NCBI GenBank assembly: GCA_016209865.1
Contig: JACQVL010000258.1
Location: 1-49,727 of the forward strand
Source of the DNA: Candidatus Latescibacterota bacterium
GTDB taxonomy: Bacteria > JAAXHH01 > JACQVL01
Reading direction: 5' to 3'
DNA length: 49,727 nucleotides
Each line of letters starts with the position of its first letter. Position 1 is the first letter of the stretch. Under the pieces are notes generated by a model, which worked only from the letters and a program-made list of their open reading frames with translations, did not search any database and had not been told where the DNA came from. A program made the translations under genes and the position numbers. Positions 1,894-46,405 of this stretch are shown piece after piece.

Positions 1894-4077
1894 ATGACTC
1901 CAACCCGCATGCTCCTCCTCGATTACGCGCTCGCCACGCCCGAGATCAACGAAGGCATCGCGTACTACTTCGTCCAGGCGGGCTGTCAGGTCGATTATCG
2001 CCAGTTTTATCCGAATCTCATTCGGGATGACCTCACGCAGTATTCCATGATCGCCCTGTTCGCCGGCCGGACGCCCGCGTTCCCCAGCGGGATGATGTCG
2101 GTGCATGAAGTGGCAGTCGCCGCCGAGTTCGTCCGCAACGGCGGACTGCTCATCCTCGGACCGAACTTGGACGGCGGCGAAGGGGCGAACGAACGCCACC
2201 TGTTCAACCACCTGCTCGCCGACCTCGACGTCTCCATCCGCGTCTGCAACGACCAGGTGGAAGATGACGTCAACGGGTACGCCGCCTCGCTGTGGAACCG
2301 GCCGTTCTACCGCCCGGCCGCCGGGCATCCGATCAACGTGAACGCCGCCGGTCGGCTTGCGTTCGAACGCTCCACTTCCCTCGTCGCCGGCCCGGACGTG
2401 AACGTGCTCCTCACCTCGTTCGAGACCGCCCGGCCGCGTGGCGTCGTCCCGGTCATCGCCTTAGCGCGAGCGGGCAACGGCTTCGTCCTCGTCGCGGGCC
2501 GGTACCTGCTGAACGCGACCGGCATCTCGCTCCGCATCTCAGGCGAGCCCCTCGTCCATCCAGAATGGCTCGCAGAGACGCAGGTGTTCTTGCAGAATCT
2601 GGCTGGTTATCTCATCAGCCTGGTGCGTGGGACTACGGAATGGGTGATGGTCAACCCGCTCCCGCCCGCTGCTGTCGGCCCTGTCGGGTTGCCTGATTTC
2701 GACCTCGACCGCGCCCCGGTCCTCGACCATCTCCCCGACGGCATCCACGTCGAGACGTTCCAATTGAGGAGTGCGGACCACCCCCCTGGATTGCAGAATG
2801 ACAATCCAAAATCCAAAATCCAAAATCCAAAATTTTTTGCTGCGCTTAATGCTCACGACCCCGACCGCGCCGCCCACTACGACCTGCTCCCCGACGAACG
2901 GCTGTACGGCTGGATCAGGCGGGACGGCGTCCGGGCAAGCTGGGGGAGCACGGTCGACTGGGGCGCGGTCTGGAAAAACCGGGCGGAAGTCGAACGCGTC
3001 ACCGACGCGCTCAAGGCGTGCGGGGTGAACCTGTTCTGGGGGATCGCCAACTGCCAGGCAGCCGGCGGGACGGGGTTCACCGAGGAAGAGAAGGCGGCCG
3101 TACGGCAGCAGTGGGAGTGGACGGCAGCCGCGCTCGACGGGTCATCCGTCAAATGGTATCCCACCTTAGACTACCGGTACTTCCGCGATGAACAGACCCG
3201 GTGTTACGGCGCGCAGGGACAGAAACTCGACGCGGCGTCCCCGATCGACCTCTCGATCTGGCGGCACTGCTGGTATGACCCGATGCGAGCGATCGCGGAA
3301 TTCTCCCTGACGCACCCGTGCATCGGCGGGATCGCCATGGACCTGGAGCTGTACGGCCACCCGCCCGCATACAATTATTACACGGGCTACGGGTTCGAGG
3401 ATGAGTGTTTCTTTACGGTGCTCGAACGATGGGAAGGATGGGTGGATGATGGACTGCTCCGATCGGCGGCTGGATTGCAACTGCTCCAGCGGTTCGACTG
3501 GCTCCGCACGCACGGACTGCTGGAGTCATACTTCACCGTCCTGAGCGCCGAAGTCGAGCGGATATGCCGGACGATCCGGGATGACGTCTGGCGGGTCAAC
3601 CCCGACCTGCTGTTCGCGTCGTACATCTTTACCACTCCCTGCAACTGGTTCGACCTGGGCGTCTACCGGGGGTTCAGCGCCCCGGAGCGCCCACTCATCC
3701 TGATGACGTTCAACATCCGGTCCGCCCGCATGGTCGAGCATCTGCGGGCACGGAGGGTGTACTGCTATCATGCTTCCGTCGCGCTGTTGGGGATGATCAG
3801 GCGGGAGGAATACGAAACGGTGTTCACGAACGCCATGCGGTACGGTCACGGGTACTGGATGAACAACATCAACGCCGTCGTCTATCCGAGCCCACAATCG
3901 GTCGAATCCCCGGCTCGTCAGGGAATGTCAACTGAGGAGGCGGTGGCAGCGATTCGAGAGGCAAATGACAAGATCGGAGGTCACTATGCGTTCATGCATC
4001 AACGGGGCGACAACGATGCCCTATTCGCTGGAAGAAGACCTGGCCGCCGCCGAGAAGGCCGGGTTCGAGGGGGTTGA
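1894..4077 (+). CDS. Uncharacterised 728-aa protein, possible glycoside-hydrolase-like
   Basis: I do not recognise the family with certainty. The N-terminal third (to about residue 250) reads like a Rossmann/GATase-like fold: LLLDYALATPEI at the start, then a GGLLILGPN strand-turn near residue 90. After a linker, the C-terminal two thirds (from about residue 340) is rich in W, Y, D and E. Stretches such as GIAMDLELYGH and WGIANCQ suggest a TIM-barrel carbohydrate-active enzyme. The linker is partly encoded by ATCCAAA heptamers in frame (NPKSKIQNPK). No signal peptide is seen. A TTG at 1876 could extend it, but ATG 1894 is preferred. It overlaps the downstream isomerase-like gene by 92 bases, and the last 30 or so residues are basic and unconserved-looking, so the true stop may be altered by a late frameshift. 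Confidence 0.7.
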   Translation: MTPTRMLLLDYALATPEINEGIAYYFVQAGCQVDYRQFYPNLIRDDLTQYSMIALFAGRTPAFPSGMMSVHEVAVAAEFVRNGGLLILGPNLDGGEGANERHLFNHLLADLDVSIRVCNDQVEDDVNGYAASLWNRPFYRPAAGHPINVNAAGRLAFERSTSLVAGPDVNVLLTSFETARPRGVVPVIALARAGNGFVLVAGRYLLNATGISLRISGEPLVHPEWLAETQVFLQNLAGYLISLVRGTTEWVMVNPLPPAAVGPVGLPDFDLDRAPVLDHLPDGIHVETFQLRSADHPPGLQNDNPKSKIQNPKFFAALNAHDPDRAAHYDLLPDERLYGWIRRDGVRASWGSTVDWGAVWKNRAEVERVTDALKACGVNLFWGIANCQAAGGTGFTEEEKAAVRQQWEWTAAALDGSSVKWYPTLDYRYFRDEQTRCYGAQGQKLDAASPIDLSIWRHCWYDPMRAIAEFSLTHPCIGGIAMDLELYGHPPAYNYYTGYGFEDECFFTVLERWEGWVDDGLLRSAAGLQLLQRFDWLRTHGLLESYFTVLSAEVERICRTIRDDVWRVNPDLLFASYIFTTPCNWFDLGVYRGFSAPERPLILMTFNIRSARMVEHLRARRVYCYHASVALLGMIRREEYETVFTNAMRYGHGYWMNNINAVVYPSPQSVESPARQGMSTEEAVAAIREANDKIGGHYAFMHQRGDNDALFAGRRPGRRREGRVRGG
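2804..2831. repeat. ATCCAAA heptamer array inside a coding region
   Basis: Four perfect ATCCAAA units are followed by a run of T. The reading frame of the 1894 gene passes through without a stop. Because 3 x 7 nt equals 7 codons, the array encodes a 7-residue period, NPKSKIQ. Confidence 0.95.
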
Positions 4078-4795
4078 AATCTGGGCTTCAAAGCTCAACA
4101 AGTACTTAGAGAGCCATACGGCCGATGACCTCAAGGCGCTCCTGGATCGTCATCATCTCAAGGCGGCGTCGATCTGTCCCTACGGCCTCGTCGGGTTCTC
4201 GGACAACCGGGGGCACATCATCGCCGTCCGGAAAGCGGCGGAGGTCGCGGGGACGATCGGCTGTCCGGTGCTCCTCGTCTGCCCGGACGTGCCGCCCGCC
4301 GGGATGGACCGCCAGGCTGCGTACGATGCCATGGCGAACGTCGCCTGCACGTATGCGGACGGGGCTGAGGAACACGGAGTCAAGATCGCCATCGAGCCGT
4401 TGGGCAACCATCCGTTCGTCCCCGGCTCGAACGAAGCCTTAGAGATCATCAACCGGGCGGAGCACGATGCGCTCGGCCTGATGATCGATACGTTCCACTA
4501 CTACAAATCGGGCGTTTCGATGGACGACATCCGGGCGATCCCGGTCGAGAAACTCCTCATCCTCCACGTGAACGACTGCGAGAACCTGCCCCGCCAGCAA
4601 CTCACCGACAAGCATCGGCTCCACATGGGCGAAGGGGTCATCCCGCTCAAGGAGATGCTGGGCATCGTGAAGGAGAAGGGGTACGACGGGTATCTGTCGG
4701 TGGAGATCTTCCGGGATGCCTACTGGCAGCAGGACCCGGTGACGGTCTCGATCGACGCGAAACGGGCGCTCGACCGGGTGTTGGCAACGTTGTAG
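3986..4795 (+). CDS. Sugar phosphate isomerase/epimerase-like TIM barrel protein
   Basis: This 269-residue protein belongs to the xylose isomerase-like / AP endonuclease 2 superfamily (IolE, IolI, hydroxypyruvate isomerase type). These act on sugars or inositol derivatives using a divalent metal. Visible signatures are AAEKAGFEGVEIW near residue 25, the metal-ligand type IAIEPL near 140, GLMIDTFHYY near 170, LHVNDCEN near 195 and YLSVEIF near 235, which provide the usual Glu, Asp, His and Glu ligands. ATG 3986 is chosen because GGAGG lies five bases upstream; an ATG at 3965 is less likely. It follows the unknown protein with overlap, so both are probably one carbohydrate-related operon. The exact substrate cannot be read from the sequence. 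Confidence 0.85.
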   Translation: MRSCINGATTMPYSLEEDLAAAEKAGFEGVEIWASKLNKYLESHTADDLKALLDRHHLKAASICPYGLVGFSDNRGHIIAVRKAAEVAGTIGCPVLLVCPDVPPAGMDRQAAYDAMANVACTYADGAEEHGVKIAIEPLGNHPFVPGSNEALEIINRAEHDALGLMIDTFHYYKSGVSMDDIRAIPVEKLLILHVNDCENLPRQQLTDKHRLHMGEGVIPLKEMLGIVKEKGYDGYLSVEIFRDAYWQQDPVTVSIDAKRALDRVLATL

Positions 4796-4849
4796 GGTCG
4801 ATCCTTGTGATCGCCCCCTGGATAGGGCGAATACAAGATTCGCCCCTAC
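4792..4849. repeat. GTAGGG...CCCCTAC palindromic element between convergent genes
   Basis: The element starts GTAGGGTCGATC and ends GATTCGCCCCTAC, with internal GATCGCCCC and GGGCGAAT arms. It fills the whole gap between the isomerase-like gene and the flippase. Both convergent genes use TAG stops that are the TAG within its GTAGGG ends (4793-4795 and 4848-4846). It may also act as a bidirectional terminator. Confidence 0.8.
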
Positions 4850-6126
4850 GCCATTGCCCGTCGTGTCAACATCCACAACATCCCTGCTAACACGGCATAC
4901 GACAATACCGTCGCGTACGCCGCTCCCATCATCCCCAGCATCGGGATCATCAGGTAATTCCCCGCGATATTCACCCCCGCCGCGATGAGCGTGGCGACGG
5001 GCACAATCCCCGACCGTCCCCGTAGGTACACCCCCGCCATCACCCCTTCCGCGATCCCGCTCAGGATGTAGGCTAACATCACGGGCGGGATCACCCGCGC
5101 TCCGGCCCGGTACTCCACCCCGATGACCGGTCTGCCGAGGAGCCGCACGCTGACGATCTGCTCGCCGAACAGGACGAACGTCAGCCACAGCAGGCCCGCG
5201 ACCCCGGCGAAGGCGAGGATGGCGCTGGTCGTCACCGTCTGCGCGTCGTCACGCTTCGCCGTCTCCAGTACGAACGGCGCCCAGGCGTACTCGAACGCCT
5301 TGGCGAGGAGTCCCATCCCCATCGCGATCTTGTACCCCGCGCTGTACACGCCGACCGCCGCGAGACCCATCAGACGCTCTAAAATGACCCGGTCGATCAG
5401 GTCGATGGCGACCGTCGCCAGCCCGGCGACGACGAACGGCAGGCCGAACCGGAGCAGTCCGGCCGGGGCGAGCGGGCGATCCGTCACGCTCACGTACCGG
5501 CGAACGCTCATCGTCACGATCCCTGTGTTCAACGCAGAGGCGATCAGCATCGCCATGAAGATCGCTTCAACTCCGCGCCGTTCGATGAGAATCAGGTAGA
5601 CGGTCAGTCCGGCGTGGACGACCGTGTTGATGAACGTGCAGAAGACAAACCGGCCGGCCCGTCCTTCTGCTCTGAGGATGGTGTACGGCAGGAGCGTCAA
5701 CGTGTCGCAGACAAGAACGCCGGCCGCCAGTCGGATCAGACTTACATGATCTGTCAGTCCGACGAACGGCGCGATCGACTCCGCAGACGTGATGAGGATG
5801 GTGGAAAGGATGAGCGCCACGCCGACGAGCGTGAGCGTCGCCCCGCTGAACATCCGCCGCCGGTCCGCATCCTCATGGAGGGCGAAATACCGGAGGAACG
5901 CGGGACTGAATCCGAGCGCGTAGACGACATGCCCGAAGCCGAGCACGGTCAGCGTCAACGCGACCGCGCCGTACTCGGCGGGGGTAAACCGGTTGGTGTA
6001 GAGGGGGAGGAGGAGGAAATCGATCGTGCGGTTGAGGATGAGGCCGAGGCCGTAGATGGCGGAGTGACGGAGGAGACGATGCGTTGACGATTTTGGGTTT
6101 TGGATTTTGGATTTTGGGTTGTTCAT
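4846..6126 (-). CDS. Polysaccharide flippase-like membrane protein (Wzx/MOP superfamily)
   Basis: About 426 residues with around 12 hydrophobic segments, in keeping with oligosaccharide/O-antigen flippases that move lipid-linked glycans across the inner membrane. The first membrane region begins LLRHSAIYGLGLILNRTIDFLLLPLYTN, the classic start of this family (AxYGxG..xxx..F.L.P.YT). Later helices include VAIDLIDRVILERLMGLAAVGVYS near mid-protein. The start is ATG 6126; the residues after it (NNPKSKIQNPKSS) are encoded by a heptamer array, and no alternative start exists between the array and the conserved region, so the array must be translated. The gene lies at the end of the gcv block. No glycosyltransferase cluster is nearby, so the substrate is unknown. 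Confidence 0.88.
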   Translation of the reverse strand: MNNPKSKIQNPKSSTHRLLRHSAIYGLGLILNRTIDFLLLPLYTNRFTPAEYGAVALTLTVLGFGHVVYALGFSPAFLRYFALHEDADRRRMFSGATLTLVGVALILSTILITSAESIAPFVGLTDHVSLIRLAAGVLVCDTLTLLPYTILRAEGRAGRFVFCTFINTVVHAGLTVYLILIERRGVEAIFMAMLIASALNTGIVTMSVRRYVSVTDRPLAPAGLLRFGLPFVVAGLATVAIDLIDRVILERLMGLAAVGVYSAGYKIAMGMGLLAKAFEYAWAPFVLETAKRDDAQTVTTSAILAFAGVAGLLWLTFVLFGEQIVSVRLLGRPVIGVEYRAGARVIPPVMLAYILSGIAEGVMAGVYLRGRSGIVPVATLIAAGVNIAGNYLMIPMLGMMGAAYATVLSYAVLAGMLWMLTRRAMA

Positions 6127-6197
6127 GACATAGAGCATTCAGAGGCAGCGGACGAGCCGCCGATTCTTAATCCAAAATCTAAAATCCAAAATCTAAA
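6091..6197. repeat. Inverted pair of ATCCAAA-type heptamer arrays around the flippase start
   Basis: TTTTGGG, TTTTGGA, TTTTGGA, TTTTGGG at 6091-6118 face ATCCAAA, ATCTAAA, ATCCAAA, ATCTAAA at 6170-6197. The arrays are reverse complements about 50 bases apart. The left array encodes the flippase N-terminus and the right one contains the TAG stop codon of gcvPB (6195-6193). Confidence 0.9.
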
Positions 6198-7695
6198 ATG
6201 CTTTCCTGTACCGCACGTCCGGGTTGCGGGCCGCAGTCGTCTCGTCTAACCGGCTGACGGGTGTGGTGTGCGGCGCGTCCTTGACTTTCTCCGGTTCCGT
6301 CTCGATCTCGCGCGCGATCGTCAGCATCGCGTCGATGAAGCTGTCGAGCGACTCCTTGCTCTCCGTCTCCGTCGGCTCGATCATGATGGCTTCGGGCACG
6401 ATCAGCGGGAAATAGATCGTCGGCGCGTAGAACCCGAAATCGAGCAGCCGCTTGGCGATGTCGAGGGTTCGGACCCCGTTGTCCTTGAACCGGGTGCCGG
6501 ACGCGACGAACTCGTGCTGGCAGGGAATTTCGGCGGGCAACGGCACCTCGCGCGGATGGCCGGATTGCACGTCGTGTACGGTGAGCGTCCGGGGGTAGTG
6601 GTGTTCGAGCCGTCGCAGCAAGTAATTCGCGTTCAGGATGGCGTTCTCGCTGACCTGGCGCAGCCCGTCCGGGCCGTGCGTCCGGATGTAGGCGTACGCC
6701 CGCACCATCATGCCGAAGCTACAGTAGAAGCTCCGAACCCGGCCGATGGAATGGGGACGGTCGTAGTCGAACGCGTACCGGTCGCCATCTTTGCAGGCCA
6801 CCGGGATGGGGAGAAAATCGACGAGCGCGCCTCTCACGCCGACCGGACCGGCGCCAGGACCGCCGCCGCCGTGCGGGGTGGAGAACGTCTTGTGGAGGTT
6901 GAAGTGGACGACATCGAACCCCATATCTCCCGGCCGGGTGATGCCTAAGATGGCGTTGAAGTTCGCCCCGTCCATGTATAGGAGCGCCCCGGCGTCATGC
7001 ACGATCCGGGCGATCTCGCGGATGTCCGACTCAAACAGCCCCAGGGTATTGGGGTTGGTCAGCATGAACGCGGCCACCTCGTCGTCCATCACTGCCGCGA
7101 GCCGCTTCGTATCGACCAGGCCGCGTTCGTTCGTCTGAATCTGCACCGCCTCGTACCCGACTAAGGTGACGCTCGCCGGGTTCGTCCCGTGGGCGGAGTC
7201 GGGGATGATGACTTTCCGTCGTGGGCGGCCCTGCCGTTCGTGGTACGCCCGCATCATCATCAGGCCGGTCAACTCGCCGTGCGCCCCCGCCGCGGGCTGG
7301 AGGGTGACCGCGTCCATCCCGGCGATCTCGGCCAGGTACGCGCTCAACTCGTACAGCAACCGGATCGCCCCCTGGCAGGTGCTGTCCGGTTGGAGCGGGT
7401 GGACCCGGGCGAATCCGGGCAAGGCGGCCACATCCTCGTTCAGCCTGGGGTTGTGTTTCATCGTGCAGGAGCCTAACGGGTACATCGCCCGGTCGGGATG
7501 GTAGTTCAGCGACGACAGCCGGGTGAAGTGGCGGACGACGTCCACTTCGCTCACCTCGGGCAATTCTGGGGGAGCATTCCGCAGAGCCTCAGCCGGGAGG
7601 AGCGATTCGATCGGCTTGACGGGCACGTCGGGGTTCGGCATGGAATAGCCTCGCCGGCCGGGGGAACTCAATTCGAAGATGAGAGGCTCGGGCAC
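6193..7695 (-). CDS. gcvPB: Glycine dehydrogenase (decarboxylating) subunit 2, P-protein beta
   Basis: This is the C-terminal half of the split glycine cleavage P-protein. It holds the PLP cofactor that decarboxylates glycine and passes the aminomethyl group to lipoyl-GcvH. The 500-residue length fits the subunit. The PLP lysine lies in [17 protein letters not shown] near residue 270; [12 protein letters not shown] is near 75 and DGANFNAI near 245. The GTG start at 7695 has AAGGA seven bases upstream. It is the last gcv gene in the operon, separated from gcvPA by a 118-aa gene of unknown function. The stop TAG falls in a heptamer array. Confidence 0.97.
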
Positions 7696-8148: not shown

Positions 8149-8199
8149 GTAGGGGCGAGGCGGTGCCTCGCCCTGGGCGACCCACCGGGTCGTCCCTAC
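8149..8199. repeat. GTAGGGGCGA palindromic element
   Basis: Begins GTAGGGGCGAGGCGG and ends CGTCCCTAC. It contains two nested inverted segments (GGCGAGGC/GCCTCGCC and GGGCGACCC/GGGTCGTCCC). It lies between the gcvPA stop and the 118-aa gene start and would be transcribed within the gcv operon. Confidence 0.8.
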
Positions 8200-22309: not shown

Positions 22310-22369
22310 ATTCCCGCTTCCACGGGAATGACAAGATGTTACCGACTACCGACCACCGACCACCGACCA
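22310..22369. repeat. ATTCCCG palindrome plus CCGACCA heptamer array
   Basis: ATTCCCG/CGGGAAT with a 6-nt loop at 22310-22329 is followed by CCGACTA and three CCGACCA units at 22342-22369. A seventh-base phase continues as CCGTCAA, whose TCA is the frr stop (TGA, minus strand). It fills the gap between frr and uppS. Confidence 0.85.
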
Positions 22370-22372
22370 CCG

Positions 22373-23660
<1,288 letters not shown>

Positions 23661-25752: not shown

Positions 25753-26184
25753 TTATCCCATCTTCAACACATCCGGCTTCTGCGCCGCATGCGGATGGGT
25801 CGATCCTCTGTAGACTTTCAGCTTCCTGAACATCTGCCGTCCCAGTGTGGTGTGGGGGAGCATGCCTTTCACCGCCATCCGGACGACCCGCTCAGGGCTC
25901 CGGGCAAACAGTTTCTGGTAGGGCGTCACCTTGAGTCCACCCGGATACCCGCTGTACCGGTAGTAGAGCTTCTGCTCCGCTTTCTTCCCGGTGACCACCA
26001 CCTGGCTGGCGTTGATGATGATCACATGATCCCCGGTGTCCACGTGGGGCGAATAGATCGGCTTCGTCTTCCCCCGGAGGATCTGGGCGACCTGGCTGGC
26101 CAACCGTCCGAGCACCTGGCCCCTGGCATCCACGACGTGCCACTGGCGCTCGACGTTCTGTGCGTTGATAGTCGGTGTTCTCAT
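25753..26184 (-). CDS. rplM: 50S ribosomal protein L13
   Basis: 143 residues. [45 protein letters not shown] near the start and [32 protein letters not shown] are L13 signatures. The ATG 26184 start gives [18 protein letters not shown], as in homologues; the frame extends upstream without homology. It is the first gene of the rplM-rpsI pair. Confidence 0.97.
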
Positions 26185-26227
26185 GGTCGTGTGTGTACTC
26201 CTCGATGAATGGATATGAGACCATCCT

Positions 26228-26283
26228 GTAGGGGCGAATCTCGTCTTCGCCCCGATATGGGCGATCCCAAGGATCGCCCGTAC
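26228..26283. repeat. GTAGGGGCGA palindromic element
   Basis: GTAGGGGCGAATC...CTTCGCCCC followed by GGGCGATCCC/GGATCGCCC and a terminal GTAC. Same two-hairpin layout as the elements at 4792 and 8149. It lies just after mtnA, before rplM. Confidence 0.8.
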
Positions 26284-26285
26284 AA

Positions 26286-27347
26286 TCATCCCCTTTTCTC
26301 CTCTCGCGCCAGCGACGCGAGGCTCTCCGCGTACGGGGTCCGTGCGATCCCCCGTTCAGTAATAATCCCTGAGACGAGACGGGCGGGGGTCACGTCGAAC
26401 GCCGGGTTGTACACCTTGACGCCATCCGGCGCGGTCGGTTTCCCGAACCCGTTCGTGACCTCGACTGGATTCCGCTCTTCGATCGGAATCCCGGCTCCGG
26501 TCGGGATCGAGAGGTCGATCGTGGAGAACGGGGCGGCGACGTAGAACGGGATGTGATGGGCCTGCGCCAGCACCGCCACCCCGTACGTGCCGATCTTGTT
26601 CGCCACATCCCCGTTGGCGGCGATCCGGTCCGCCCCCACCATAATGCAGTCGATCTTCCCCTCTTTCATCACCTGAGCGGCCATGTTGTCACAGATGAGG
26701 GTGACATCAATCCCGGCCTGCATCAGCTCCCAGGCGGTCAGCCGGGCGCCCTGGAGGACGGGCCGCGTCTCGTCGGCGAACACCCGGACCCCCTTGCCGT
26801 CCGCGTGCGCCTGGTAGATGACCGCTAACGCCGTGCCCGCCCCGGCCGTCGCCAGCGCGCCCGCGTTGCAATGCGTCAGCACCGTCTGTCCGTCGTTGAT
26901 GAGGTCTGCCCCGTACTCTCCGATCTTCCGGCAGACCGCCCGGTCTTCCTCCAGGATGGCTAAGGCCTCGTTCAGCAACCCCGTCTGGATGTCCGGGATG
27001 GAGCGCGTCCGGCTGCGCTCCGCGACCGCCCTCATCCGATTGAGCGCCCAGAACAGGTTGACGGCGGTCGGCCGGGTCGCCCCCAGCACCCGGATGACCT
27101 CATCCAGCTCCGCGGTGAACGCCGGATAGTCGCGGGCGCGCGAGTCCTGGATGCCCAGCACCACCCCCAGCGCAGCCGCCACCCCGATCGCCGGCGCGCC
27201 CCGCACCTTCAGGTGCGTGATGGCAGAGGCCAGCTCCCGATAATCCCGGTAGGTCTCGTACACCAGATCATTCGGAAGCCGCGTCTGGTCGAGCATCCGC
27301 ACCGCGCGATGCTCCGCATCCCAGGCGATGGTCGTGAAAGGCGTCAT
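26286..27347 (-). CDS. mtnA: S-methyl-5-thioribose-1-phosphate isomerase (MtnA family)
   Basis: It converts methylthioribose-1-phosphate to methylthioribulose-1-phosphate in methionine salvage. 353 residues. [15 protein letters not shown] near residue 47, the catalytic cysteine in [21 protein letters not shown] near 160, [20 protein letters not shown] near 190 and the catalytic aspartate in [20 protein letters not shown] near 240 are all present. The eIF2B-like fold is shared with ribose-1,5-bisphosphate isomerase, so substrate choice is not certain. The start overlaps the kinase stop upstream (ATGA). No other salvage genes are adjacent. Confidence 0.95.
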
Positions 27348-29976: not shown

Positions 29977-30423
29977 TCATTCTCGCGGAAGCGCGAACCC
30001 GTCGCCTTCATGACGCTTCTCGTCCTGGACGCGCGGCCCGGCCGTTCGTGACTGGATCGTCCCGGAGGCCGGGTCGAGGAACACGTCCGTCACCGGCGCA
30101 TCCCCCCAGAGCCGCTCCAGGCCGTAAAACACTCGCGTTTCCTGACGGAACACATGCACGACCACGTCCACATAGTCGATCAACACCCACCGCCACGCGG
30201 TCGTCCCTTCCACATGCCAGGGTCTGACCTGCTCCGCCGCCAGCCCGTCCACTACACTCTCGACGATCGCTTTCATCTGGGGCTCGGAGCCAGCGGAGCC
30301 GATCACAAAATAGTCAGCGATGGACGTCAGGTCCTGCAGGTCGAGGATACGGACATCCATCGCTTTTTTAGCGACCAGAGACGCTGCCGCATGCTCGGCC
30401 AGCTCCGCCGCGTTCAATGCCAC
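29977..30423 (-). CDS. rsfS: Ribosomal silencing factor RsfS
   Basis: It binds L14 and blocks subunit joining under starvation. 148 residues, slightly longer than usual. DVRILDLQDLTSIADYFVIGSAGSEPQMKAIVESVVDGL and WRWVLIDYVDVVVHVFRQETRVFYGLERLWGDA are signatures (near 25-60 and 75-110). GTG 30423 start. The last residues (GDGFALPRE) and the TGA stop come from a degenerate ATTCCCGC palindromic repeat at 29978-30000. It sits between the LytR_C protein gene and argS. Confidence 0.94.
   Translation of the reverse strand: MALNAAELAEHAAASLVAKKAMDVRILDLQDLTSIADYFVIGSAGSEPQMKAIVESVVDGLAAEQVRPWHVEGTTAWRWVLIDYVDVVVHVFRQETRVFYGLERLWGDAPVTDVFLDPASGTIQSRTAGPRVQDEKRHEGDGFALPRE
29978..30000. repeat. Degenerate ATTCCCGC-type palindrome at the rsfS 3' end
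   Basis: CATTCTCGCGGAAGCGCGAA resembles the perfect copies at 10008 and 22310. It supplies the rsfS C-terminal codons and stop. Confidence 0.6.
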
Positions 30424-39223: not shown

Positions 39224-40108
39224 TCACCCCGTCATCTCCAGACTGATGTCCAGGGCGGGGGCGGAATGGGTGAGCGCCCCGATGGAGATCAAGTCGACCC
39301 CGGTCTCCGCGACCGCGCGGACGCGGTCGAGGGTGAGCGCTCCGGAGGCTTCCAGCTCGATCGGGCGGCCGGGCGCGGTCATCCGGCGGACGAGGGCGAC
39401 GGCCGCGCGCATGGCGTCGAGCGACATGTTATCGAGCATGATGCGATCGACCATCAGCCGGGCCGCCTCTTCCACCTGGGTCAGCGTTTCCGTTTCGACT
39501 TCGATCTTGAGCATGCTGCTCTGGGCGTGCATCCGTTCGCGGCATCGTTCGACCGCCGGGGTGATCCCGCCCGCGGCCGCGATATGGTTATCCTTGATGA
39601 GGACCATGTCAAACAGTCCGAGCCGGTGGTTCATCCCGCCGCCCATCCGGACCGCATACTTTTCGAGCTGTCGCAGTCCCGGTATAGTCTTCCGGGTATC
39701 GGTAATCTGCGCCGGGGTGCCGGCCACCGCCGACACGTACCGGGCGGTCAGGGTAGCGATCCCGGAGAGATGCTGGAGGAAGTTGAGGGCGGTGCGTTCC
39801 CCCGTTAATATCCCGCCCACCGGGCCAGAGATGTCCGCGAACCGCTGCCCTGGCTCGACGCGGTCGCCATCCTGGATCGACACCCGGAGTTGGAGCCGGG
39901 GGTCGATGCGTTGGAAGACCAGACGGACGACCTCAAGCCCGGCGATGACTCCCGGCCGCTTCGCCATCAACCGGCCGGTCGCGCGGACATCGGCGGGTAC
40001 GGTCCACGTGGTCGTGACGTCCCCGGCGCCGAGATCTTCGGCCAGGGCGCGGTCGATCAGGGAGAGGAGGTCTGGGGCGTCGAATAGCCCTTTCTCGTCA
40101 CTCGTCAC
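39224..40108 (-). CDS. nadC: Nicotinate-nucleotide pyrophosphorylase (carboxylating)
   Basis: It forms nicotinate mononucleotide from quinolinate and PRPP. 294 residues. ALAEDLGAGDVTT near the start, ERTALNFLQHLSGIATLT near 105-122, ITDTRKTIPGLRQLEKYAVRMGGGMNHRLGLFDMVLIKDNHI near 135-175 and VETETL near 205 are signatures. The only usable start is GTG 40108, which is itself part of a GTGACGA heptamer array, so the first residues (TSDEKG) are repeat-encoded. nadA and nadB are not in the window. Confidence 0.96.
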   Translation of the reverse strand: MTSDEKGLFDAPDLLSLIDRALAEDLGAGDVTTTWTVPADVRATGRLMAKRPGVIAGLEVVRLVFQRIDPRLQLRVSIQDGDRVEPGQRFADISGPVGGILTGERTALNFLQHLSGIATLTARYVSAVAGTPAQITDTRKTIPGLRQLEKYAVRMGGGMNHRLGLFDMVLIKDNHIAAAGGITPAVERCRERMHAQSSMLKIEVETETLTQVEEAARLMVDRIMLDNMSLDAMRAAVALVRRMTAPGRPIELEASGALTLDRVRAVAETGVDLISIGALTHSAPALDISLEMTG

Positions 40109-40121
40109 TCGTCACTCGTCA
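40094..40121. repeat. CTCGTCA (GTGACGA) heptamer array at the PHP-nadC junction
   Basis: Four perfect CTCGTCA units. On the minus strand the array supplies both the TGA stop of the PHP-domain gene (40121-40119) and the GTG start of nadC (40108-40106). Confidence 0.92.
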
Positions 40122-41141
40122 CTTGATATACATCGGGTTCGAGTACAGCCAGGGACGGCCGTCGAGCCGTGCTTCCACACGGTAGACCCCGGGCGTGGTC
40201 ACGGAGACGGCGCGGGTCTGGCCGGTGGCCTGGTCATAGAGCGCGCCGTCGCGAACGACCCGGATTTCCGCTGCGGTCGGCAGGACGACCTGAAGGTCGA
40301 CAGGCGGGACGAACCGGAGGTCGTCCCCCATCATCCGCTCCTCGCCGTCGGCGTTGCGACCGCAGAAGGCGAACCCCTTCCCGTGATGCAGCGGTTCATA
40401 GCTGAGGTAACAATGCCCTGCGCGGAGCGCGCTGTAGAGCGACGCGAGGGCCGTCTTCGGGTCTCCCGTCAACGAGGTATCGGTGATGATGTACGTCAGT
40501 AACGTCTCGAAGAGCTGACGGTACGGGAACACCACCAGAAGTCCGGCCGGGAGCTTCTTGGCATGGACATCCAGTCCGCCGATCGCGGTCACTTTGCGCT
40601 GTTGCGTGAGCTGATCCCATGCAGCCACCGTTTCGGGGAATGGCCCCTGGATCCACGCATCCGGGTTGGCATGGCGGAAGAGCAAGTTGTAGTACCGGAC
40701 ATCTCTGATCCAGTCGAACATGTACGACCAGAGCTCGATGCCCGTGAACGGCGCGTCCCAGGCCCGCCAGAAGTACGATTTCTGGCGGAAGAGCACCCGA
40801 TACCGCCCGTGAGGATGGACGACGATGCTCACCCCTCTCTGGGCGTCGATGTCCTCGACGATCCGGCGCGTCGACTGCCGGCCGTTGACGCGTCGAGGCA
40901 GGCCGAGCGACAGGCAGTGCTCACGAGAATACGACACCTCCTCGCCGACAGCAACGAGCAGACTGTCATGCCAGCCTTCATAGCCCTTTTCCCGTGCGCG
41001 CAAGGTATTATGATCAGTCATCACCAAATAATCGAGTCCTGCTTCCCGCCCTGCTGTAATGATCTCCTCTAAGGTGCCCTCTCCGTCCGAGTAAATCGAG
41101 TGGATGTGAATGGCACCCCGGTACCAGTACGATGTCTCGAT
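40119..41141 (-). CDS. PHP-domain protein, probable ATC start
   Basis: About 340 residues. A PHP metallohydrolase-like domain is visible: AIHIHSIYSDGEGTLEEII (H-x-H) near residue 11, LDYLVMTDHNTL near 37, then VVHPHGRY and GGLDVHAKKLP, which supply the remaining metal ligands. A C-terminal beta-domain follows. The domain begins upstream of the nearest ATG/TTG candidates: the H-x-H motif is only in frame if translation starts by 41141. There GGAGG (41152-41148) stands six bases before ATC, with no ATG, GTG or TTG in frame nearby. A non-canonical AUC start or a small sequence error is implied. The substrate is unknown; it lies after the epimerase. Confidence 0.82.
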   Translation of the reverse strand: METSYWYRGAIHIHSIYSDGEGTLEEIITAGREAGLDYLVMTDHNTLRAREKGYEGWHDSLLVAVGEEVSYSREHCLSLGLPRRVNGRQSTRRIVEDIDAQRGVSIVVHPHGRYRVLFRQKSYFWRAWDAPFTGIELWSYMFDWIRDVRYYNLLFRHANPDAWIQGPFPETVAAWDQLTQQRKVTAIGGLDVHAKKLPAGLLVVFPYRQLFETLLTYIITDTSLTGDPKTALASLYSALRAGHCYLSYEPLHHGKGFAFCGRNADGEERMMGDDLRFVPPVDLQVVLPTAAEIRVVRDGALYDQATGQTRAVSVTTPGVYRVEARLDGRPWLYSNPMYIK

Positions 41142-41185
41142 ACTCCACCTCCGGTGATGATATCTATAAGGAACAGCCTTCTGTA

Positions 41186-41225
41186 GTCGCCCTCGTACAG
41201 GGCAACCACAGAGAGTTGTCCCTAC
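41186..41225. repeat. GTAGGGAC palindromic element, partial
   Basis: Read on the minus strand it begins GTAGGGACAACTC and continues through GGTTGCCC to GGGCGAC. The TAG in GTAGGG (41224-41222) is the stop codon of the epimerase gene. Confidence 0.7.
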
Positions 41226-42148
41226 GCGCTATCGCCTGTGCTCCGGAAGAAGTCGACCGTCTGTTCGAGGCCGCGTCCCAGCTCGACGGACGGCACCCAG
41301 CCGAGTGCCTGCCGTGCCCGTGTAGCATCCAGCACGCTCCGGCGTTGCTCGCCTGCCTTCTCGGGCCCGTGCGTCGCCTGAACCCCTCCGCCGATGATAT
41401 CTCCCAGACGCTCGAACAGGACGTTGACGCTCGTCTCAACCCCCGTGCCGATGTTGAACGTCCCGACGACATCCAGTGACATCGCCCGGCGGTTCGCCTC
41501 GACGACATCCCCGACGTAGACGTAATCGCGCGTCTGTTCCCCGTCGCCGTTGATCGTCACCGGCTCCCCGGCCAGCAGTTTCCGGGTGAAGATGGCCACG
41601 ACGCCCGCCTCCCCGTGCGCGTTCTGACGAGGCCCGTAGACGTTCGCGTACCGGAGCGCCACGTACGCCAGGCCATGCACCGCGTAGTAACAGTGCAGGT
41701 AATGCTCGACGGAGAGCTTCGCCGCCCCGTACGGGGAGATGGGCATGGGCATGTCCTGTTCGGATGCCGGGATGTACCCCTCCCCGTAGACCGCGCCGCC
41801 GGTCGAGGCGAAGATCACCTTGCGGACCCCGTGACGGGCGCAGAGGTCGAGGAGACGGAGCGACCCCAGGATGTTCACGTCGGCGTCGAACAGGGGATCG
41901 CGGACGGAGACGCGGACGTCGAGTTGGGCGGCGTGGTGGCTGACGATGTCCGGGCGCTCGCGCTCGAAGACACCGTCCAACTGAGGGTCCCGGATGTCCA
42001 TCTCATACCAGCGAGCGTCGCCAAACAGGTTGACCCGGCGTCCCGTCGAGAGGTTATCGACGACGACCGCCTCGTGCCCGTCCCGGAGCACTCGCTCGAC
42101 GACGTTGGAGCCGATGAACCCCGCGCCGCCAGTGACGAGGATTCTCAA
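41222..42148 (-). CDS. NAD-dependent epimerase/dehydratase (UDP-glucose 4-epimerase type)
   Basis: 308 residues of the extended short-chain dehydrogenase family. LRILVTGGAGFIGSNVVERVL carries the GxxGxxG NAD motif. FASTGGAVYGE near 120 holds the catalytic Ser/Thr position and PISPYGAAKLSVEHYLH near 145 holds the Y-x3-K pair. ALRYANVYGPRQNAHGEAGVVAIF and DGEQTRDYVYVGDVVEA follow. Probably interconverts a nucleotide sugar. TTG 42148 is chosen because AGGAG lies seven bases upstream and translation before it is not conserved. Confidence 0.92.
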   Translation of the reverse strand: MRILVTGGAGFIGSNVVERVLRDGHEAVVVDNLSTGRRVNLFGDARWYEMDIRDPQLDGVFERERPDIVSHHAAQLDVRVSVRDPLFDADVNILGSLRLLDLCARHGVRKVIFASTGGAVYGEGYIPASEQDMPMPISPYGAAKLSVEHYLHCYYAVHGLAYVALRYANVYGPRQNAHGEAGVVAIFTRKLLAGEPVTINGDGEQTRDYVYVGDVVEANRRAMSLDVVGTFNIGTGVETSVNVLFERLGDIIGGGVQATHGPEKAGEQRRSVLDATRARQALGWVPSVELGRGLEQTVDFFRSTGDSA

Positions 42149-42166
42149 GGGAGGACTCCTTTTGTC

Positions 42167-42280
42167 GGGATTAGGGGTTCGGGAAAGACCATACAGACGA
42201 GAATGGAGCCATTCCTTAGTGCTGTTATGTTCTTCCTTCTTTTCTTCCGAACCCCGAACCCCCAATCCCGAACCCCGGGT
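42167..42280. repeat. Inverted pair of CCGAACC heptamer arrays
   Basis: GGGATTA, GGGGTTC, GGGAAAG (42167-42187) face CCGAACC, CCGAACC, CCCAATC, CCGAACC (42247-42274), about 60 bases apart. It fills the gap between the propeller gene and the epimerase. Confidence 0.85.
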
Positions 42281-45508: not shown

Positions 45509-46405
45509 TTACCCCCCCTCCGTGTCCCCCCGCATGCGGGGGGACGATAGGGGGGTATCATTCCCGCGAAAGGGGAATCCACCCGAGAGTCGTTTCTGCT
45601 TCATAAACCACACCAGACTGGCGAGAAGCACCACTCCGCTGACCAGCGCCGTCGGCCAGGAGACGTCCTCTAACGCGCCCATCCAGCGGAACTGTTCAGA
45701 CTGCTTCGCGTTGAGGATCACCAGCGACAGTCCGTTGTTCATCCCGTGGACGATGATGCCGGGGTAGACGCTCCCGGACGTGTACGCGAGCAGCCCGCAG
45801 ACGACGCCCGCTAACAGGATGGAGACGAACCACCAGGGGTTGATATGGACAAGCCCGAACGTCAGGCTCGCCAGGACGATCGCCCAGAACGGCCCGTGCC
45901 GCCACTCCAGGGTGGATTGGAGAAACCCCCGGAAGAACAGTTCCTCGCAGACCGCCGCTCCGATGACAAGGCCGGAGACGATCCACACCAGATCGCCGGG
46001 ACCCTGAATATTGAGCATCGCTTCCATCGCCTGTTTCAACGACTCCGGCATCGGGAAACGAGATTCCAACGCGGTATCGACCGCGTTCGCCACCATCGGC
46101 AGCGAGAGACCGACGACCACACTGAACGACACCGTCCGCCCGCCGATCGGATGCAGGCGGAAGAGGGCGCGGGAAGAGAAGCCGGTGACGCGGGTGAACA
46201 CGACGGCGGGGACGAGGATGGCCACTTCCGAGAGGACGAGGGTGACTTTCCCTAAGGCATCGAGCGCGAGCAGACCGGCGCCCATCACCGCTAAGATCGT
46301 GAAGACGGTGATACCCCACACCTGTCTCGCTGCCGGGTACCGGGGCGCGGCCTGGGGTTCGGAAATCTCGGACTCAGTCCTGTCCAGTTGCGGTTCCTGC
46401 ATCAT
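45509..46405 (-). CDS. CPBP-family intramembrane metalloprotease
   Basis: 298 residues with about seven to eight transmembrane helices. The family motifs are present: EELFFRGFLQSTLEW (EExxxR) near residue 152, FGLVHINPWWF (FxxxH) near 190 and a later HGMNNGLSLVI (H in HxxxN). These metal-dependent proteases (CAAX/ABI type) sit in the inner membrane. The N-terminal 30 residues are polar. The C-terminal residues after about 265 (SGGFPFRGNDTPLSSPRMRGDTEGG) are translated from two palindromes and end at a stop within one. The start overlaps acpS by 32 bases. Confidence 0.92.
   Translation of the reverse strand: MMQEPQLDRTESEISEPQAAPRYPAARQVWGITVFTILAVMGAGLLALDALGKVTLVLSEVAILVPAVVFTRVTGFSSRALFRLHPIGGRTVSFSVVVGLSLPMVANAVDTALESRFPMPESLKQAMEAMLNIQGPGDLVWIVSGLVIGAAVCEELFFRGFLQSTLEWRHGPFWAIVLASLTFGLVHINPWWFVSILLAGVVCGLLAYTSGSVYPGIIVHGMNNGLSLVILNAKQSEQFRWMGALEDVSWPTALVSGVVLLASLVWFMKQKRLSGGFPFRGNDTPLSSPRMRGDTEGG
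45510..45580. repeat. GC-rich palindrome plus ATTCCCGC-type repeat at the CPBP gene 3' end
   Basis: Positions 45524-45545 form a perfect 22-base palindrome (GTCCCCCCGCA and its complement). It is nested inside TACCCCCC/GGGGGGTA arms (45510-45557). A degenerate ATTCCCGC...GGGAAT copy lies at 45559-45580. Together they encode the tail and stop of the CPBP protein. Confidence 0.8.

Follow-up and report, generated by a model that had tools for sequence, protein, structure and literature searches.

In a Candidatus Latescibacterota genome, the GTAG tag of a dispersed palindromic repeat coincides exactly with the stop codons of genes more often than placement chance allows. These repeats are REP elements, found as monomers and as inverted dimers. 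The reading that we favour, to which we give a probability of roughly 0.7, is that REP dimers are inserted, probably by preference at (G)TAG, and then selected at gene ends, and that the tandem heptamer arrays found at other stops arrive there by a separate route. The window (the whole stretch of DNA analysed, 49,727 nucleotides) is one contig of a 3.75 Mb assembly comprising 356 contigs and estimated to be 83% complete. Statistics were drawn from ∼1.38 Mb of this source genome, where a home-made ORF caller yielded 1046 genes at 86% coding density.

GTAG-tagged REP elements in the source genome

When 18 tags, GTAG included, were compared for intergenic hairpins, GTAG was the strongest, marking 84 hairpins against 2–48 for the other 17; TGTC came next with 48. 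The 1.38 Mb hold 111 GTAG hairpins, of which 12 are classed inside called genes, so the elements are mostly intergenic. One REP type recurs in 44 copies genome-wide at ≤3 mismatches and in none in a backwards control. The elements carry an unpaired GTAG at one palindrome end, are dispersed, and occur both as monomers and as inverted dimers (GTAG..CTAC), as in the GTAG-tagged REP superfamily. The element between the isomerase-like and flippase genes (Table 1) is a GTAG-superfamily REP dimer, that is, a REPIN or BIME unit, miniature and non-autonomous. Its RNA is predicted to fold at −34 to −35 kcal/mol (z ∼ −6).

The same dimer also lies inside a longer repeat, TCGGTAAAAACCT-[dimer]-GGATGACCTGTTTTGAT, for instance at L009:11917, L010:13117, L014:10260 and similar loci. 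Several copies of this longer repeat, dimer included, sit near contig ends, so the longer repeat probably breaks the assembly. An empty site within it was sought, and every copy found carried the REP. No true species-level empty site was found.

Table 1. Repeat elements and the genes whose stops they touch, with positions in the window
Feature	Position	Strand	Sequence and relation to stops
GTAG-REP dimer (inverted pair)	4792..4849		GTAGGGTCGATCCTTGTGATCGCCC (+) and GTAGGGGCGAATCTTGTATTCGCCC (-); both outer TAGs are stops of the flanking convergent genes
GTAG-REP dimer, another subfamily	8149..8199		GTAGGGGCGAGGCGGTGCCTCGCCC / GTAGGGACGACCCGGTGGGTCGCCC; off any stop
GTAG-REP dimer near 5′ end of ORF 25753-26289	26228..26284		Off any stop
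Degenerate GTAG-REP dimer	41185..41225	-	GTAGGGACAACTCTCTGTGGTTGCCC plus inverted GTAGTCGCCC..; TAG 41222-41224 is the epimerase stop
Isomerase-like gene	3965-4795	+	Stop TAG 4793-4795 is the left TAG of dimer 4792-4849
Flippase gene	4846-6138	-	Stop (CTA 4846-4848) is the right TAG of dimer 4792-4849
gcvPB	6193-7695	-	Stop TAG 6193-6195 in a ..CTAAAATC variant unit of AATCCAA/AATCTAA heptamer array 6169..6199
frr	22373-22933	-	ACCGACC heptamer array 22341..22372 adjoins the stop, which lies just outside the last unit
rsfS stop	29977-29979	-	TGA of a degenerate TGTCATTCCCGCG..GCGGGAATCCA-type palindrome 29977..30005, which also codes the last rsfS codons
PHP-domain gene	40119-41027	-	Stop TGA 40119-40121 (TCA on the forward strand) inside CTCGTCA heptamer array 40094..40123
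Epimerase gene	41222-42265	-	Stop (CTA 41222-41224) in the degenerate REP dimer

Stop codons of eight genes in the window

A first-pass annotation had proposed that repeats supply the stops of at least eight genes. Reading the sequence together with the ORF list upholds six of these eight: the isomerase-like gene, the flippase, the epimerase, gcvPB, the PHP-domain gene and rsfS. For the REPs, both sequence and ORF coordinates bear out that a TAG in a GTAGGG end terminates the isomerase-like, flippase and epimerase genes. Heptamer arrays had been credited with three further stops. Those of gcvPB and the PHP gene do lie within arrays, and homologues of gcvPB end −1 to +3 aa from the source-genome stop; the frr array only adjoins a native stop, because the same codon closes three homologues. 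Palindromes, credited with two, supply the stop of rsfS through a degenerate family copy. The CPBP stop (45509-45511) was rejected, its supposed palindrome being a trivial 5-bp GGGTA-TACCC match that belongs to no repeat family. As an observation in its own right, the C-termini of CPBP and rsfS are ∼2–10 aa longer than those of homologues and appear to be coded by TGTCATTCC-type palindrome sequence (45509-45600; 29977-30005).

Exact coincidence of tag and stop

Across the 1.38 Mb, the TAG lies exactly on a gene stop in 12 of the 111 GTAG hairpins. The histogram of offsets is correspondingly sharp, with these 12 at 0, one each at +3, +7 and +8, and none from −60 to −1. Where a same-strand gene covers a tag, its end falls at the tag in 12 cases and 1–300 nt beyond it in no case; three further same-strand genes cover a tag near their own 5′ ends. 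For GTAG ends that face a gene 3′ end, 10/38 are exact against 4.0 expected when elements are placed uniformly in the element-free interval, and not one of 20,000 such simulations reached so high a count.

Of the three repeat classes, the heptamer arrays alone crowd within 10 bases of gene 3′ ends. Neither the GTAG REPs as a class (12 versus 10.0 within 10 nt, p 0.19) nor the TGTCATTCC (TGTC) palindromes (7 versus 5.9) are enriched over that distance, and the REPs are enriched at the exact offset only. The related suggestion that insertion is targeted to gene ends survives in a weaker form: the exact-offset spike of the REPs and a roughly twofold 3′-end excess of the heptamers argue that gene ends are to some extent targeted or that copies survive there, two processes that these data do not fully separate.

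Heptamer arrays and TGTC palindromes

The three repeat classes (GTAG REP, TGTC palindrome and heptamer) behave differently, and pooling them is unwarranted. A second palindrome family, TGTCATTCCCGCG..GCGGGAATCCA, bears the TGTC tag. The 139 tandem heptamer arrays in the 1.38 Mb, which we take to resemble STRR-type intergenic repeats, are dispersed and mainly intergenic, and one unit has 521 matches versus 2 in the control. Within 10 nt of gene 3′ ends there are 42 arrays where about 24 are expected; for non-overlapping arrays the figures are 21 versus 11.1 near 3′ ends and 8 versus 10.4 near 5′ ends. Stop codons inside arrays number 21, of which 16 are TGA, and the 3′-end effect arises largely because the units contain stop codons. 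Since units hold stops in one orientation or another and 7 shares no factor with 3, an array touching the 3′ end of a coding region would close the frame within ∼20 nt.

In the window (1689-49726) and the other contigs of the 1.38-Mb sample, arrays of four unrelated heptamer families (GTGACGA, GGTCGGT, GGGGTCA and AAGGACG) also tend to bear an A-run at the same array end. It occurs in 6 to 21 arrays of each, or 37–57%, versus a background of 3% per 13-mer. AAAATCC arrays did not display this tendency.

The same REP in other phyla

The exact 24-mer GTAGGGGCGAATCTTGTATTCGCC occurs at ≥110 loci in about a dozen phyla, as judged by record titles. Among the matches listed, carriers include deltaproteobacteria (Geobacter and others), Nitrospira and other Nitrospirota, Chloroflexi, Aminicenantes, Thermoanaerobaculia, Armatimonadota, Planctomycetota, Puniceicoccales, Latescibacterota, Methylomirabilota, Tectomicrobia and Natroniella. 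Isolates and one complete chromosome are among them, so contamination is unlikely as a general cause. At ≤3 mismatches the GTAGGGGCGAATCTTGTATTCGCC REP is absent from 14/14 same-order relatives of the source genome, which points to a recent arrival in the source lineage. In many of the loci (L029-L138) it is paired with the same partner, GATCCTTGTGATC.

Offsets were also determined for 232 REPs around these loci, counting ORFs ≥300 nt; several loci come from one genome, so not all of the 232 are independent. The exact position again stands out, with 19 REPs at 0, none at −10 to −1 and 8 at +1 to +10. A further 13 lie at −200 to −11, that is, 11–200 nt ahead of the gene stop, and readthrough cases therefore exist in these genomes.

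Native and displaced stops

The first-pass annotation had further held that the repeats replaced original stop codons. For the REP genes of the source genome this is unsupported, as their C-termini match those of REP-free relatives as well as controls do. For seven REP-stop genes, 23/29 homologue pairs with REP-free relatives end within 1 aa of each other. The isomerase gene alone accounts for 15 of those pairs, and the other genes stand at 8/14, similar to the 26/50 of control genes. Order-level homologues of the isomerase-like gene end within 0–3 aa of the source stop. In the nearest relative, G001, the gene ends TTG-TAG at the same codon and has no REP, a match that carries little weight because GTAG stops seem common in G001. 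In the source genome, GTAG stops make up 115 of 997.

Elsewhere, the element does appear to shift the gene end slightly. In Geobacteraceae, a GTAG REP of one of various subfamilies sits exactly at the stop of kdpA in 8/28 genes (L310, L312, L313, L316, L322, L326, L334 and L138), with ≥4 gains or losses on the tree. These REPs occupy the gap that separates kdpA from kdpB, shortly ahead of the next start codon. Of the kdpA genes that lack a REP, most run 1–2 codons longer than the REP-bearing ones, although two stop with TAG at the very same codon. A methyltransferase gene likewise ends ∼2 codons earlier where it bears a REP, less clearly than kdpA. These early ends thus indicate a small displacement of the stop in some lineages. 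The kdpA stop in Geobacteraceae, where distinct subfamilies occupy the identical codon in eight genomes, is possibly a new REP hotspot.

Proposed mechanism and alternatives

REP dimers are thought to spread via TnpA-REP/RAYT single-strand transposases. Selection would then remove copies inserted within genes, and copies whose tag falls on the (G)TAG that ends a gene, or in frame among its last codons, would leave the protein almost intact and persist. A simple survival filter of this kind would give fewer exact coincidences than are seen, so a (G)TAG-like site is probably preferred at insertion as well. The source genome (83% complete) yielded no PF01797 (Y1/RAYT) transposase despite its abundant GTAG REPs, and mobilisation by a RAYT is for this reason something that we infer here. 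The Geobacteraceae carriers G059 and G061 have 8 and 10 PF01797 matches, respectively, and no GTAGGGG hairpin was found beside the Y1 transposase loci examined in these two genomes.

The nearest competitor dispenses with any sequence preference: insertion would be indifferent to sequence, and the survivors would be copies that either give an in-frame TAG in the last few codons or lie past the stop. We disfavour this pure survival filter and consider it a possible but doubtful account of the spike. REP insertions inside genes are indeed rare, and the early ends of REP-bearing kdpA and methyltransferase genes, relative to most REP-free homologues, are what such a filter would leave behind. The outcome depends on how many in-frame positions are tolerated. 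With about ten, the source-genome spike has a P of ∼0.001; with three at local density, ∼1.3 cases are expected versus 12 observed, and the Poisson P falls to ∼1e-8 in the source genome and 3e-14 in the cross-phylum set. Homologues of the REP-stop genes in the order mostly differ by ≤1–2 aa, which argues for few tolerated positions, and the source genome has no out-of-frame readthrough at gene ends.

A more specific form of site preference can be put forward tentatively. GTAG-REP dimers might insert preferentially at an existing (G)TAG, the tag being or including the target that stays at the 5′ flank, in the manner of IS200/IS605 peel-and-paste transposition. TAG stops would then serve as safe docking sites, and gene ends such as that of kdpA could be re-occupied by different subfamilies from one species to another.

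Insertion and selection at gene ends also accounts for the data better than a post-transcriptional role, in which a REP hairpin no more than 15 nt from the stop stalls ribosomes or shields the mRNA 3′ end and is selected there. According to earlier work quoted in PMC12306157, E. coli REPs <16 nt from the stop reduce translation. The foot of the hairpin in the 4792-4849 element directly follows the stop, and REPs recur between kdpA and kdpB. However, such a role would predict enrichment over +1 to +15, leaving the spike at exactly 0 unexplained, and the REPs lack a general enrichment within 10 nt. We consider this explanation improbable.

Retention of the repeats as transcription terminators, which the first-pass annotation had offered as a reason for their position, is less probable still and finds no support here. 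Strong RNA hairpins straight after stops (z ∼ −6) and the 3′-end enrichment of heptamers would suit terminators. Against this, TTTT follows within 12 nt of only 1/111 GTAG hairpins, terminator prediction called no such site at 4792-4849, and neither of two heptamer arrays that were folded has a stable structure. REPs are moreover undepleted between divergent genes and occur inside the kdpA-kdpB operon. Finally, that TAG-containing repeats in short intergenic gaps sometimes just happen to be stops deserves almost no credence: REP proximity to stops in general is near expectation because intergenic gaps are short, but the exact-offset tests in the source genome and across phyla, and the simulation, speak against chance.

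Relation to known repeats and significance

In their account of the GTAG-tagged REP superfamily, Di Nocera, De Gregorio and Rocco (2013, PMC3733652) state that the TAG stop of a neighbouring ORF is often supplied by the terminus of a GTAG REP. The elements described here share the unpaired GTAG on a short palindrome, the monomers and inverted dimers, and the mostly intergenic location, whereas the source lineage is apparently not among the hosts covered by that paper. The present analysis quantifies the exact-offset excess against a null, compares homologue C-termini and places an exact 24-mer in about a dozen phyla. The elements likewise resemble REPIN/BIME units with their RAYTs (PMC2817692, PMC3116915, PMC8266576) in combining GTAG and a palindrome as inverted pairs, and differ in that no PF01797 RAYT was found in the source genome. 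The RAYT work treats GTAG as a recognition or guide motif, and the route of REP dissemination is called poorly understood (PMC8266576).

For the heptamers, the closest parallel is the TAACTGA repeat of Beggiatoaceae and cyanobacteria, some copies of which overlap the stop of the upstream gene, with forward units carrying stops in all frames (PMC4679880). Both are dispersed arrays of 7-nt units that sometimes overlap stops. The units here are GTGACGA, TCCAAAA, GGTCGGT, GGGGTCA and AAGGACG, in contrast, and it is the 3′ ends of genes, not start codons, that they lie near. Of the papers listed by a literature search with a 10-nt piece of the REP, none concerned bacterial repeats.

Since stop-supplying GTAG REPs (PMC3733652) and stop-overlapping heptamers (PMC4679880) are published, the stop-codon finding itself is an already known property. 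What is possibly new is an insertion that prefers gene-terminal (G)TAG, together with the kdpA stop hotspot in Geobacteraceae; the quantified offset adds a possible lead on how REPs choose their targets. For annotation, the association is a warning that stops and C-termini beside repeats may be element-derived. For the biology of REPs, an association with stops that is precise to the base and repeatable in public genomes offers a direct handle on their insertion preference.
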